Positions 30,838 through 37,800 of a DNA stretch of 41,573 nt are shown piece by piece. Position 1 is the stretch's first letter. The number at the start of each line of letters is the position of its first letter. The notes under the pieces were generated by a model. That model was not told the origin of the DNA and did not search any database. It saw only the letters and a list, made by a program, of their open reading frames with translations. The translations under genes and the position numbers were made by a program. Source of the stretch: Clostridiales bacterium. GTDB taxonomy: Bacteria; Bacillota; Clostridia; Oscillospirales; Oscillospiraceae. The stretch spans positions 1 through 41,573 of the forward strand of contig JAAYBH010000447.1 of the NCBI GenBank assembly GCA_012718935.1. The letters are read 5' to 3'.

Positions 30838-31572
30838 TTATTCCTGCTCCCAGTTGTGCCAGACGTTCTGGACGTCATCGTTGTCTTCCATGTGCTCTAT
30901 AAGCTTTTCCATGTCCTTGATGTGATCGGGGTCGGTGAGCTTGATGTAATTTGACGGTACCATCTCCAGCTGGGCGGACAGGAACTTGTATTTTTTCTTT
31001 TCCAGTGCCTCGGTGACGGAGTTGAAATCCTCGACGGTTGTATAAACCTCGAATACCGCGTCGTCTGTGACAATATCCTCGGCGCCGGCGTCCAGCGCGT
31101 CGGTCAGAACAGTGTCCTCGTCCAGGTCGCCGTCCTCGTTGTCGATAATGATGACGCCCTTGCGCGCGAACGACCAGGAGACGCAGCCTGTGGCGCCCAT
31201 ATTCCCGCCGTATTTGTCAAAGTGATGGCGCACTTCCGAGGCCGTTCTGTTGCGGTTGTCGGTCATGGCTTCCACGATGACGGCGACGCCGGCCGGCCCG
31301 TAGCCTTCGTAGGTGACGCTCTCGAAATTGTCGCCGCTGGCGCTGCCGAGCGCTTTTTCAATGGTGCGCTTGATATTGTCATTGGGCATGTTCGCCGCTT
31401 TCGCTTTTGCTATGACGGCAGCCAGACGTGAATTGTTGTTCGGGTCGCCGCTGCCGCCTTCCTTAACGGCAACGATCATTTCGCGGGCTATCTTTGTGAA
31501 GGCCTGCGCTCTTTTTGCGTCAGCCGCGCCTTTTGTTTTTTGAATATTATGCCATTTTGAATGCCCTGACAT
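30838..31572 (-). CDS. yebC: YebC/PmpR family regulator or translation factor
   Basis: 244 residues, the family norm. The start MSGHSKWHNIQKTKGAADAK is the conserved N terminus and is preceded by AAGGAGAG; a longer frame adds 27 improbable residues. YebC proteins were described as DNA-binding regulators, and some members were later linked to relief of ribosome stalling at proline runs. EF-P, which acts in the same process, is encoded nearby (34663-35226). Confidence 0.94.
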   Translation of the reverse strand: MSGHSKWHNIQKTKGAADAKRAQAFTKIAREMIVAVKEGGSGDPNNNSRLAAVIAKAKAANMPNDNIKRTIEKALGSASGDNFESVTYEGYGPAGVAVIVEAMTDNRNRTASEVRHHFDKYGGNMGATGCVSWSFARKGVIIIDNEDGDLDEDTVLTDALDAGAEDIVTDDAVFEVYTTVEDFNSVTEALEKKKYKFLSAQLEMVPSNYIKLTDPDHIKDMEKLIEHMEDNDDVQNVWHNWEQE

Positions 31573-31772: not shown

Positions 31773-31919
31773 ATGTCCTCAAAGGGCAAAAATCAGCAAA
31801 ATCTGAACAGCAGCGCAATTCAGCAAAACCCGCAGAACCCGCAAAACAGGAACTTAAACCAGGCTCAAAACCAATCGGCAATCAACCAGCCTCAGGAGAA
31901 AAATAACAACGGAAAATAA
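31773..31919 (+). CDS. Asn/Gln-rich 48-residue protein (possible spore-type small protein)
   Basis: A short ORF reading MSSKGKNQQNLNSSAIQQN and continuing with repeated NP, NQ and QN pairs. More than half of its residues are Asn, Gln or Ser, and it has no hydrophobic core, so it is probably disordered. AAGGAGGTG lies nine bases before the ATG, a strong ribosome site, and two hairpins follow the stop. Composition recalls gamma-type small acid-soluble spore proteins, but clear homology is not visible. TATAAT at 31712-31717 may be its -10 box. Confidence 0.6.
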   Translation: MSSKGKNQQNLNSSAIQQNPQNPQNRNLNQAQNQSAINQPQEKNNNGK

Positions 31920-31928
31920 CCCTACGTA

Positions 31929-31985
31929 ATAGAAGCAGCCGGAAGGCTGCTTCTATTTGAAGCAAGCCGGAAGACTGCTTCTATT
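31929..31985 (+). terminator. Duplicated hairpins after the small N/Q-rich gene
   Basis: First hairpin: ATAGAAGCAGCC, loop GGAA, GGCTGCTTCTAT, then TTG. Second: GAAGCAAGCC, loop GGAA, GACTGCTTC, then TATTTTG. They look like a duplicated terminator and may serve both the N/Q-rich gene and the convergent ATPase gene. Confidence 0.7.
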
Positions 31986-31997
31986 TTGTTCGCTTAT

Positions 31998-33923
31998 TTA
32001 ATCCTCATCATCGTTATTATGCTGGCGTATTTCTCTGATGTCACGCCCTTTGATACCGAAAGCGCGTTTGGCATTCATCATAACGATCAAGGCAAAAACA
32101 GCGTCGGCCAATGCTGCCATCCACATTGACGCGAGCCCAAACGCTGCCAGCAGCAGGATAAGGCTTTTTAACCCAATCGCCAGCATGATGTTCTGCCTGA
32201 CAACCTTATCCGTATTTCGGGCAAGCGTAACGGCGGTGGCGATTTTTGAAGCTTCGTCGGTCATTATGATCATATCGGCGGCATCCGTCGTTTCATTGGA
32301 GGTAAATCCGCCGACTGCAATGCCGACATCGGCCATTTTCAGGATCGGCGCATCATCGGCGCCATTTCCGGCAAATATCAGTTTGTCGCCTTTGAGCTGC
32401 ATATCCAGAAGCCCTTTAAGTCTTGAGAACTTATCCTCCGGCAGACATTCGGCATAAAATTCCTTGATGCCAAGCTGACCGGCGACATCAGCGGCCACTT
32501 CCTTTTTATCCCCGGTAAAAAGGACAATTCTGTCGATTCCTATGATATGCAGATCCTTGACTGCTTTGACGGAATCTGGTTTCAAGGTGTCTCTGAGCAG
32601 GATACGTCCGGCGTATTGCCTGTTGACGGCGATATATACGGCGCTGTATTCCACCTGGGATATATCAGGCCTGACCCCCAATTCCTCCATCAACAGCGCA
32701 TTGCCTGCGGTAACAGAATTGCCTCCGATCTCAATCTCGGTTCCCTTTCCGGGGTACTCACGGAAATCGGATACCTTTGTGATATCCAGCATGATATCTG
32801 CGGCTGCCACGATCGAACGTGCAATCGGATGGTCCGAAAAGAGCTCGGCATAAGCCGCCAGCATTAACAGCCGGTTCTCCGGCAGACCGAGAGCGCTGAC
32901 ATCAACCACCCGGTAAATCCCGTCCGTCAGTGTCCCGGTTTTATCAAACACGACGGATGTGGTGCGCGAGATCGTATCGATCACATCGGCGCCCTTAAAG
33001 ATGATGCCTTTTTTGGAAGCGCCGCCGCTGCCGGCAAAATAGGTCAGGCTCACTGAAATCACATACGCGGCAGGACTCGCCAGGACGAGAAGGCCAAGCG
33101 CTCTTTGCAGCCATAGGTTTATGGGCATGCCGCCGATTACCGGGACAAGTATGCCGATGATCAAAGCTGCCGCCGCAACGGCGGGCGTATAGAGACGCGC
33201 GATTTTTCCGATTTTCTTCTCCGGCGCGGCCTTTCTGTTTTCAGCTTCTTTAACAAGCTCCAGAATCTGCGAGACTGTCGAATTGTCAAAGTCCGATGTT
33301 ACCCGGATATTGAGCGCATCCTTCAGATTGACGCTTCCGGAAAGGACCTTACTGCCCGCCGTCACAGAAAGCTGAGCGGCTTTCCCGTTCAGCGCCGAGG
33401 TATCCAACTCGGATTCCCCGCTGATAACAACGCCATCAAGAGCGATACGCTCGCCCGGTGATACGGAAATGACATCGCCAACATTGATTTTTCCCGGCGC
33501 CATCTGAACGATCGCTCCGTTGATAACGGCGTTGACGGCCTCAGGGCGCAGATCCATAAATCTCTCAATGTCATTTGCCGATCTTCTGACAAGCTTGTTG
33601 CAGGCGAGCTCGCCCAGCCTGAAAATCAGCATGACTGCGGCGCCCTCCGCACCTTTATCGATGGCAAAAGCTACGGCAGCCGTGATGACAATCAGCAGGC
33701 CGGCATTAAACTCCGATTCCCTGATCAGCTTCGTCACGGTATCAATCAATATGTCATAGCCTGTTATAACGACGCAGGAGGCAAAAATAAAGGTTTTCAG
33801 CCAGGGCGCCACCGGAATGAAGAGGCCTGCTGCATAAAACAGTGCTGCGACGATGATGCAAATGGAAACGAGTAAATCCGGCGGCAGGGTTAACATCGGT
33901 TTTCTCATTTTTTCTTTGTTCAA
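31998..33923 (-). CDS. P1B-type ATPase with altered metal and catalytic motifs
   Basis: About 641 residues with eight membrane segments and no N-terminal metal-binding domain. The phosphorylated Asp327 lies in DKTGTLT; SGES (actuator), SDHPIARS (nucleotide domain) and FTGDKKE are kept. Yet the sixth-helix metal motif, usually CPC, is Ser283-Pro284-Ala285 in LASPAAYVIS, and the usual GDGxNDAP reads GNGADDAP (Asn520, Asp523). The last-helix Asp of zinc pumps persists in ALADAVFALIV. Metal transport is thus uncertain. I choose the TTG at 33923 because AGGGGAG precedes it. Confidence 0.85.
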   Translation of the reverse strand: MNKEKMRKPMLTLPPDLLVSICIIVAALFYAAGLFIPVAPWLKTFIFASCVVITGYDILIDTVTKLIRESEFNAGLLIVITAAVAFAIDKGAEGAAVMLIFRLGELACNKLVRRSANDIERFMDLRPEAVNAVINGAIVQMAPGKINVGDVISVSPGERIALDGVVISGESELDTSALNGKAAQLSVTAGSKVLSGSVNLKDALNIRVTSDFDNSTVSQILELVKEAENRKAAPEKKIGKIARLYTPAVAAAALIIGILVPVIGGMPINLWLQRALGLLVLASPAAYVISVSLTYFAGSGGASKKGIIFKGADVIDTISRTTSVVFDKTGTLTDGIYRVVDVSALGLPENRLLMLAAYAELFSDHPIARSIVAAADIMLDITKVSDFREYPGKGTEIEIGGNSVTAGNALLMEELGVRPDISQVEYSAVYIAVNRQYAGRILLRDTLKPDSVKAVKDLHIIGIDRIVLFTGDKKEVAADVAGQLGIKEFYAECLPEDKFSRLKGLLDMQLKGDKLIFAGNGADDAPILKMADVGIAVGGFTSNETTDAADMIIMTDEASKIATAVTLARNTDKVVRQNIMLAIGLKSLILLLAAFGLASMWMAALADAVFALIVMMNAKRAFGIKGRDIREIRQHNNDDED

Positions 33924-34119
33924 TTGACGCTCCCCTATTCTCCACACGAGTGCTTCGGCGCTGTCTCAAGGAGCTGCGTGATATGCGCGTCAGCCATGGT
34001 TGGAAATACGCTTTAAGCGCTTCGTTCCCGGTCATTGAAGATGCATTCAAGTCTATTTATACCATACAGCTTTATTCCGGCTGCTGTCAAGGTAATTTGG
34101 ATATTTCCGGCAATATAAT

Positions 34120-34150
34120 CGGCGTCTCCAGCTATCAGCCGGAGACGCCG
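34120..34150 (-). terminator. Hairpin after the CD1247-type gene
   Basis: CGGCGTCTCC pairs with GGAGACGCCG around an 11-base loop, 20 bases beyond the stop codon. The following minus-strand sequence (ATTATATT) is only weakly T-rich. The rest of 33924-34119 holds no recognisable gene. Confidence 0.55.
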
Positions 34151-34169
34151 AAAAATTTAACCGTGTGAA

Positions 34170-34613
34170 TCAGTCGGTTTCCTCTTCTTCATCCTCGTCA
34201 AACTCAAATTCCAGTTTCTCCCCGCATTTTGGGCAGGAGATCACACCGGTTTCAAGGTCTGCTTCATCAATGACAATGTCTTCCCCGCAGGAAGGGCATG
34301 TCACCTCATAAGCGCATTCATCGTCCCCGCAGCAGCAGTCATCATCAGAGCAGCAGTCGTCATCATCGTCGTCCTCATCATCATCGTCGTCATCGCCGAA
34401 GAGAACTTCCTCCACATCTGCCAGATCATCGGATACCGCGTCAATCTCCTCGCCAAGGTCGAGTGCGTTTTCATTGAGCTCGTCCAGCTCGTCTGCTATA
34501 TCCGCGAGAGTATCAATAATCGCCGATATGAGCTTCCCTTCCTTGGTCTCTGTATCAAGCTTCAGTCCTTCCGCGAGGCCTTTTAGATATGCAACCTTTT
34601 CCAATACTGTCAT
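34170..34613 (-). CDS. CD1247-type acidic protein with Asp/Cys tract and zinc ribbon
   Basis: 147 residues. The N-terminal helical part (VAYLKGLAEGLKLDTETKEG) matches the CD1247 N-terminal domain of Clostridia. Residues 74-100 are nearly pure Asp and Cys, with Cys at 87, 88, 93, 94, 95 and 100. A zinc ribbon follows (CPSCG at 106-110, CPKCG at 127-131), then an acidic tail. Function is unknown. AAGGAGGT precedes the ATG. It is upstream of the odd ATPase gene, so a metal-related role is conceivable but unproven. Confidence 0.85.
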   Translation of the reverse strand: MTVLEKVAYLKGLAEGLKLDTETKEGKLISAIIDTLADIADELDELNENALDLGEEIDAVSDDLADVEEVLFGDDDDDDEDDDDDDCCSDDDCCCGDDECAYEVTCPSCGEDIVIDEADLETGVISCPKCGEKLEFEFDEDEEEETD

Positions 34614-36876: not shown

Positions 36877-37005
36877 CTTTGCATCATATTTTTATTATGT
36901 CAAAACACATATTAACACTGTACATCCTATGCGTCACCAGTCAGAGTTGAAATAAACGGCGTTAGAAAACGATTGATATTACCACATATCGGGAGGGTTG
37001 CACAA

Positions 37006-37800
37006 TTGGATATAATGACAAACATTATTGTCGCCGTACCGCCGGAGTATCTGGAAGCCGCTTCCCGTTCCGGCTATCCCCTCGCCTATATGATTTACAG
37101 GATCGGGCGCGGCCATCACCTGTTCCGTGCACAGGGCGTCAGCCGTATCGCCGGCGGTGTGATGGTTTTAGATACGGGCGGGTATATCGGCGGCGGGCCA
37201 TCAGCCACGCTTATCATGGAAATACTGGGTGAGTGCGAAAGGAATAAATTCAGCGGCATTGTCCTGGATACGGGCGGCAAGGTCACCTCGCAACTGATGC
37301 TGCTTACAAGTCACCTGGCATCGGAAGCCATAGCGCGCGGTCTGAAGGTGTATGTCCATGAGATACTGTCAGACGCCAGTAAGCATGTGATCGTCCTGAT
37401 CCCGACGGCGCTGTCCGGCGGAACCCTTGCCGGACATATCGGCGATGCCCTTCAAAAATACGGTCCCGGCAGAGTCGCGCTGGAGATTGAACGCGTCCGT
37501 ATGGACTTCTCCCTGCCGGCGGCGCAGGGGACGGGTATTGAGCTTACCGCCGATGAGCTCCAGTCGCTGATTGACGAATATCACCCGCAGTCGTTTTTGT
37601 CAAAGGATCTCTGTGCCTACTATTTTACATACCACGATAAAAAAGGCACCCATTTCGTTTTGTACGACAATGGCTCCAGCATCAATCGCAAGCTTTCCGT
37701 CGCTTCAAAAATGGATATTGAGGACGCATTTATATTTTACCCTCATACAGCGGATATCATCGACAAAATCAAGCCTTCTCTTCCCGGGCAATCTTTTTGA
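37006..37800 (+). CDS. Unrecognised 264-residue protein, possibly a degenerate GH18-like barrel
   Basis: The TTG at 37006 follows GGGAGGG at the right spacing. The sequence alternates strands and helices as in a TIM barrel (FSGIVLDTGGKVTSQ, GLKVYVHEI, VIVLIPTALSGGT). Near the end YDNGSSINRKLSVASKM followed by AFIFYPHTAD recalls the YD-S-K segment of GH18 spore and chitinase barrels. The GH18 catalytic DxxDxDxE is not seen. No signal peptide. Function is not known, and the barrel idea is inference. Confidence 0.7.
   Translation: MDIMTNIIVAVPPEYLEAASRSGYPLAYMIYRIGRGHHLFRAQGVSRIAGGVMVLDTGGYIGGGPSATLIMEILGECERNKFSGIVLDTGGKVTSQLMLLTSHLASEAIARGLKVYVHEILSDASKHVIVLIPTALSGGTLAGHIGDALQKYGPGRVALEIERVRMDFSLPAAQGTGIELTADELQSLIDEYHPQSFLSKDLCAYYFTYHDKKGTHFVLYDNGSSINRKLSVASKMDIEDAFIFYPHTADIIDKIKPSLPGQSF

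Follow-up and report, generated by a model that had tools for sequence, protein, structure and literature searches.

A putative P1B-2 pseudo-ATPase encoded upstream of yebC in Sporobacter

Pseudoenzymes are well known among kinases, where pseudokinases work in the way that is considered here for a P-type ATPase, a protein of another fold: catalytic residues are lost, and the fold and the selection on it are kept. Our literature search found no paper on a P-type pseudo-ATPase or pseudoenzyme. The closest described systems are the ZntA/CadA-like P1B-2 ATPases (TIGR01512; 4umv, 4umw). In P1B pumps, the cysteine-containing metal motif of helix M4 reads CPC, SPC, TPC or similar. According to the accessible part of a review (PMC10654040), the Glu of the phosphatase motif is present in all pumps; the part of a second source that was available (PMC8880997) describes the TGE motif as responsible for dephosphorylation and, for ZntA, K693 as a built-in counter-ion, D714 as the metal-binding aspartate and E202 as a suggested transient ligand that aids release, and assigns all three to the ion site and exit path.

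The window, that is, the whole stretch of 41,573 nucleotides that was analysed, comes from a Sporobacter genome and holds a gene with an open minus-strand frame, as the preliminary description had stated (about 640 codons, 31998-33923). The features referred to below are the following.

31998..33923, minus strand: gene for a putative P1B pseudo-ATPase of 641 aa, beginning with TTG
33378..33386, minus strand: N179-G180-K181, the site of the actuator TGE by alignment with canonical pumps, Glu changed to Lys
33069..33077, minus strand: S283-P284-A285, aligned with the CPC metal site of canonical pumps
32931..32945, minus strand: D327-KTGT phosphorylation motif, intact in the window copy
32352..32369, minus strand: G519-NGADD (residues 519-524), in place of the GDGxND hinge
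34061..34090, minus strand: promoter-like TTGACA-18-TATGGT, 10 of 12 consensus matches, 5' of the gene
34119..34151, minus strand: terminator-like hairpin 3' of the upstream CD1247-type gene
31929..31956, minus strand: 12-bp perfect hairpin 3' of the stop codon, identified by eye
30838..31572, minus strand: yebC, the conserved downstream neighbour

The TTG start codon at 33923 has GGGGAG 6 bases to its 5' side; a longer alternative frame begins with GTG at 33947 (649 aa), and all residue numbers and motif coordinates follow the 641-aa numbering. Along the minus strand, the hairpin of the CD1247-type gene is followed by the promoter-like site and then by the TTG start, and this terminator-like hairpin suggests, by pattern match, that the pseudo-ATPase gene has its own transcript. 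Promoter-like sites, which are consensus matches only, numbered 8 in the region compared to 3.1 expected in shuffles, and terminator-like hairpins numbered 4 compared to 3.2 expected. The 12-bp hairpin behind the stop codon received no terminator call in the pattern scan of the region, and a search of the window brought up no RNA family above its gathering score. Between the pseudo-ATPase gene and yebC, on the opposite strand, lies a 48-aa Asn/Gln-rich ORF (31773-31919, plus strand) with a strong Shine-Dalgarno sequence and no match in a Pfam search; similar short N/Q-rich ORFs occupy the same place in four other Sporobacter genomes (G005, G003, G002 and G004), and none was seen in G120, a genome of another genus.

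The window protein scored above the NCBIfam cut-offs for both pump profiles that were compared (443.3 bits vs. a cut-off of 346.25 for TIGR01525, and 393.4 bits vs. 313.5 for TIGR01512), and its sequence matches zinc, cadmium and copper pumps of solved structure. An AlphaFold2 model built from 5 sequences (pLDDT 74.5, pTM 0.69) has the P1B fold: a Foldseek search with the model matched 4umw (E = 6.8e-43, TM 0.55) and 7r0g (TM 0.76), and alignment of the model to 7r0g with VIA-align 2 gave a Z of 34.1 and an rmsd of 5.2 over 604 residues. By profile and predicted fold, the gene is a P1B-2 (ZntA/CadA-like) ATPase, so that the P-type fold claimed in the preliminary description holds, as does the lack of an N-terminal metal-binding domain, none being found by Pfam. 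The protein shares with ZntA and CadA the common fold and set of helices, the HP and DKTGT motifs and the equivalents of E202, K693 and D714, and differs from them in the missing CPC cysteines and TGE Glu, the altered hinge, the missing metal-binding N-terminus and the surroundings of its gene, where no ArsR-type gene was seen to adjoin.

At the level of individual residues, D327 in DKTGT and the HP motif (H365-P366) are present, as described previously, and so is TGD. The SPA at 283-285 and the GNGADD hinge were likewise read correctly; in the hinge, the first Asp of GDGxND has become Asn and the Asn has become Asp. Cys occupies both position 283 and position 285 in all 50 canonical relatives compared, so SPA is not a common variant. 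The preliminary description also took the actuator motif to be kept as SGES. That SGES belongs to a loop upstream of the catalytic motif (VVISGESELD), and the true TGE site aligns with N179-G180-K181 (SALNGKAA), which means that the dephosphorylation Glu, too, has been lost.

We compared 15 such altered proteins (hereafter dead copies) with the 50 canonical pumps, from which L059, L034 and L033 were left out for their long branches. The TGE Glu was kept in none of the 15 dead copies (substituted in 6, deleted in 9), the hinge Asn in none of the 14 that cover the hinge, and an Asp aligned with D327 in 10 of 15. Across the canonical pumps, 108 columns are invariant at a threshold of 97%; the window protein keeps 79 of these, and the full-length dead copies keep between 28 (G217) and 83 (G005); by this count, the window protein is among the least altered. 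Three residues that the preliminary description did not mention, E93, K586 and D607 in M2, M5 and M6, are the equivalents of ZntA E202, K693 and D714. The E202 equivalent is kept in 13 of 15 dead copies (Ala in G003, Gln in G127), and the K693 and D714 equivalents in 13 of 14 each, the exception being G002 with a conservative Arg and Glu, respectively. This retention may be structural, since four glycines and a further Asp are just as widespread among the dead copies as the Glu-Lys-Asp set.

The gene was identified in all six Sporobacter genomes of the collection: the window genome, G005 (S. termitidis DSM 10068), G003, G002, G004 and G001. Identity to the window protein is 56% in G005, 48% in G003, 46% in G002 and 34% in G004, and the G001 copy is cut by a contig end to 326 residues. 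Five of the six genomes have the gene upstream of yebC, both on one strand; in the sixth, G001, one contig breaks off within the gene and a different contig carries yebC at its start. An assembly artefact is an unlikely source of the gene because it is present in the one-contig genome G003 and in the cultured strain G005.

Both CPC cysteines and the TGE Glu are absent from all six copies, and the hinge Asn from all five that cover the hinge. The position of the actuator Glu is occupied by Lys in the window protein, Ser in G005, Asp in G003, Ala in G002 and Gly in G004, and the M4 motif reads SPA, GAS, SGT, SFS and GHN in the same order. The phosphorylation motif is DKTGT in the window protein and G005, DKTGV in G003 and SKTGT in G002; in G004 and G001, the motif is gone, with an Asp still aligned at 327. 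The hinge reads GNGADD in the window protein, GDGASD in G005, GDGVAD in G003 and GDGDAD in G002, and is lost in G004. The G004 ortholog falls below both profile cut-offs (180.9 bits for TIGR01525 and 149.2 bits for TIGR01512). Thus, the replacement letters differ from species to species and the dead clade is defined by loss: the expected clade with SPA and GNGxDD was not found, SPA and GNGADD occurring together in the window protein only among the loci tabulated.

The six copies form one clade in the first tree (SH-aLRT 100), and the sister of this clade is an intact CPC/TGE/GDGIND pump of G120 (SH-aLRT 88; 85 in the second tree, which was built without L030-L034, L059, five rows of the outgroup and the truncated G001 protein, and in which long branches make the placing of G004 relative to genus g76 unsure). 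Like the window gene, the G120 gene (L120:5585-7834) is directly upstream of yebC, and its product is 48% identical to the window protein and shares the acidic DDED end; unlike the window protein, it has all catalytic motifs and CPC intact and a Cys/His-rich N-terminus. In G186, a C-terminal fragment 77% identical to the G120 pump stands at a contig edge before yebC. Given this intact sister at the same place, the dead copy would most simply descend from a working pump at the same locus. A canonical CPC/TGE pump is also present in all six Sporobacter genomes and falls elsewhere in the first tree. An ArsR-type gene adjoins the canonical pump in all five loci tested (G000, G003, one of the two such pumps of G005, G001 and G004); none was seen to adjoin the dead copies in the neighbourhoods examined.

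We estimated dN/dS with an in-house pairwise codon model. The pair G004/G001, in which both copies are without DKTGT, gave a dN/dS of 0.115 (dS 1.47, 326 codons, likelihood ratio 156 against a value of 1). For other genes of the same two genomes, dN/dS was 0.078 (canonical pump), 0.035 (yebC), 0.049 (EF-P), 0.092 (M24 peptidase) and 0.162 (the protein at 36973). Within the dead copies of this pair, dN/dS was 0.111 for M1-M2 and 0.194 for the actuator, and lowest for M3-M4 (0.031, a rough value from 89 codons with dS near 4). The pairs window/G005, window/G003, window/G002 and G005/G003 have dS above 13, and their dN/dS values are not used as numbers; because every pair with the window gene is saturated, the estimate for this lineage rests on one pair, G004/G001, the sole unsaturated one in Sporobacter, which covers half of the gene. 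The frame is open in all five full-length Sporobacter copies, the sixth being truncated at a contig end. When the window gene was made to evolve neutrally in a simulation, 1% of frames were still open after 0.1 changes per site, and from 0.27 upwards not one of 300 was. The window lineage is under purifying selection, a conclusion of which we are all but certain. Relatives have neither the dN/dS near 1 nor the interrupted frames of a pseudogene, in agreement with the earlier statement that the gene is not simply decaying; what is found instead, catalytic residues lost and the protein kept by selection, is the pattern of a pseudoenzyme.

Similar losses were identified outside Sporobacter. Of the 30 yebC loci listed (with 1.5-kb flanks), nine hold a P1B gene or fragment. 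In a second genus, g76, relatives of 535-557 aa are encoded upstream of yebC in three of five genomes, and these proteins join the Sporobacter copies in the second tree (98). Their actuator region has 38 residues compared to 126 in canonical pumps (38-47 across g76, g111 and G127), two of the three have CPG in M4, thus keeping one Cys and the Pro of CPC, and the G080 protein of this genus matched no Pfam family at 0.01. The matches listed for a profile of the dead-copy proteins bring in genus g111 and one further genome, G127; the family may hold further dead copies beyond the matches and loci listed. G127 has one dead P1B copy (L202:2395-4149), which sits on a long branch, reads EKTGI and ARPLA, and retains 47 residues of the actuator region.

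In g111, all 35 genomes, one per species, have a match (in G774, in two pieces on separate contigs). In place of the actuator there is a linker of 25-39 residues (38 in 33 of 35, 32 in one and 25 in one), compared to 125 for the same region in four pumps measured likewise. CPC is kept in 35/35, the M5 Lys in 35/35 and the M6 Asp in 34/35; intact DKTGT, HP, TGD and GDGxND are each found in 0/35; and all 34 proteins with the N-terminus covered have an HGHxCxCxxC cluster there (33 by pattern, one by eye). Ten pairs among five proteins gave a dN/dS of 0.027-0.070 (0.051-0.070 in the four pairs with dS below 2.1), and the P and N domains gave 0.024-0.029 with saturated dS. We examined five g111 loci: each has a fructose-bisphosphate aldolase gene directly upstream and a histidine kinase gene nearby, and a response regulator could be identified in four. 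In G201, a canonical pump comes after an aldolase, recognised by its N-terminus only, and an ArsR gene. The g111 proteins resemble the window protein in having lost catalytic motifs under purifying selection while keeping the P/N part and the membrane Lys and Asp; they differ from it in that the actuator domain is deleted, CPC and the His/Cys N-terminus are kept, and the gene follows the aldolase gene rather than adjoining yebC. Three separate origins of dead copies are likely, the joining points of g111 and G127 being unsettled in the second tree. A wider search of 394 genomes of the order with an actuator-less g111 profile matched 32 genomes at E ≤ 1e-95. DKTGT, GDGxND and CPC are present in every one of the 30 loci read (CPC by pattern in 29 and by eye in the remaining one), and 24 gave a clean TGE, the pattern matching elsewhere in the other six; these 30 loci thus contained no further dead copy, a thin test, since no g111 genome was among the matches.

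The residues lost indicate that the window protein is, with high confidence, not a working pump: with no Glu to drive hydrolysis of the phosphoenzyme, the pumping cycle could not be completed. ATP binding and even phosphorylation may persist, since D327, HP, TGD and the 79 invariant residues are kept and the pump cut-offs are passed. On balance, we consider the protein a P1B-2 pseudo-ATPase, a former Zn/Cd export pump kept for a non-pumping, probably metal-responsive job as a membrane regulator. As its kept membrane charges and P/N domains suggest, such a protein would act as a conformational switch that responds to a metal or some other ligand and signals through the P/N domains to a partner; the canonical pump, whose gene lies at another place in the genome, may be that partner. 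Of the non-pumping sensor proposed in the preliminary description, the first half is thus supported by the lost Glu and by the orthologs without DKTGT, and the second half is what we infer from the retained parts; we give a sensor or regulator, as opposed to some other non-pumping role, about an even chance. The case that fits sensing most clearly is g111, with a complete CPC, a His/Cys N-terminus, no actuator and a kinase gene nearby, a neighbour that fits sensing and that was found in g111 only, with none near the window gene. In the window branch, the metal-site cysteines are gone, but the rest of the protein is less altered. Three groups, g76, g111 and G127, have lost nearly the whole actuator domain as well. 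That P-type ATPases repeatedly became pseudo-pumps in one bacterial family, losing the phosphatase motor and serving now as membrane metal receptors or regulators, is a broader proposal to which we give slightly less than an even chance.

Other readings explain parts of the same evidence. The membrane domain, deprived of its motor, could let a divalent cation through by way of the retained exit-path residues, as a passive facilitator or channel. The wide retention of the E202, K693 and D714 equivalents (13/15, 13/14 and 13/14), their assignment to the ion site and exit path in the part seen of PMC8880997, and the low, if rough, M3-M4 value of 0.031 in G004/G001 all agree with this, but the entry site is gone with both Cys in the window lineage, and a channel gives no reason to retain P and N domains, which in g111 evolve at a dN/dS of 0.024-0.029 (saturated dS); we regard a facilitator as rather unlikely. 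A non-catalytic partner that tunes or stabilises a canonical P1B pump of the same cell in a mixed dimer, a reading that overlaps with the regulator, would account for the retained fold and surface domains, and each of the six Sporobacter genomes has a canonical pump to pair with. However, such pumps are common in the family anyway (matches at E ≤ 1e-130, dead copies included, occur in at least 252 of 300 genomes), so co-occurrence says little, and the genes of dead copies and canonical pumps are not neighbours; this, too, we hold to be unlikely.

It is very improbable that the protein still uses ATP to pump, moving an unusual substrate through an altered cycle. D327, HP and TGD are kept and the pump profiles are passed, but the TGE Glu is Lys, the hinge Asp is Asn, the hinge Asn is Asp, there is no Cys in the metal site, and orthologs at the same locus are without DKTGT; residues of the cycle itself are lost besides those of the metal site, which leaves the earlier suggestion of a pump with a new substrate unsupported. 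A decaying pseudogene could explain the many lost catalytic residues and the long branches, yet the five full-length Sporobacter copies are open where neutral frames soon close, and the most altered pair has a dN/dS of 0.115, which makes decay the least credible reading by far. If the pseudo-ATPase is confirmed, profile-based annotation labels as heavy-metal pumps genes whose products would be unable to pump, and there would be a class of P-type pseudo-ATPases of which our literature search found no description. Dead pumps would then serve as natural deletion experiments on the role that remains to a pump without its actuator and on the residues that selection keeps, questions made directly testable by the retained membrane Glu-Lys-Asp and P/N domains; the g111 branch, with CPC intact, would be a clean candidate for a pump that has been turned into a metal receptor.

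Three further proteins were noted in the window and its genome. The CD1247-type protein (34170-34613, minus strand), encoded beside efp, is acidic and rich in Cys over one stretch, DDDCCSDDDCCCGDDEC, and matches a zinc ribbon weakly. Another P1B paralog of the window's genome, L002 (G000:C82), has CPG in M4 with TGE, DKTGT and GDGVND intact. A 275-aa protein (36973-37800, plus strand) has no Pfam or NCBIfam match, and the G120 stretches L120 and L133 were searched for it without success; it occurs in the same neighbourhood in five other Sporobacter genomes (one copy is cut by a contig end), with a dN/dS of 0.12-0.16.
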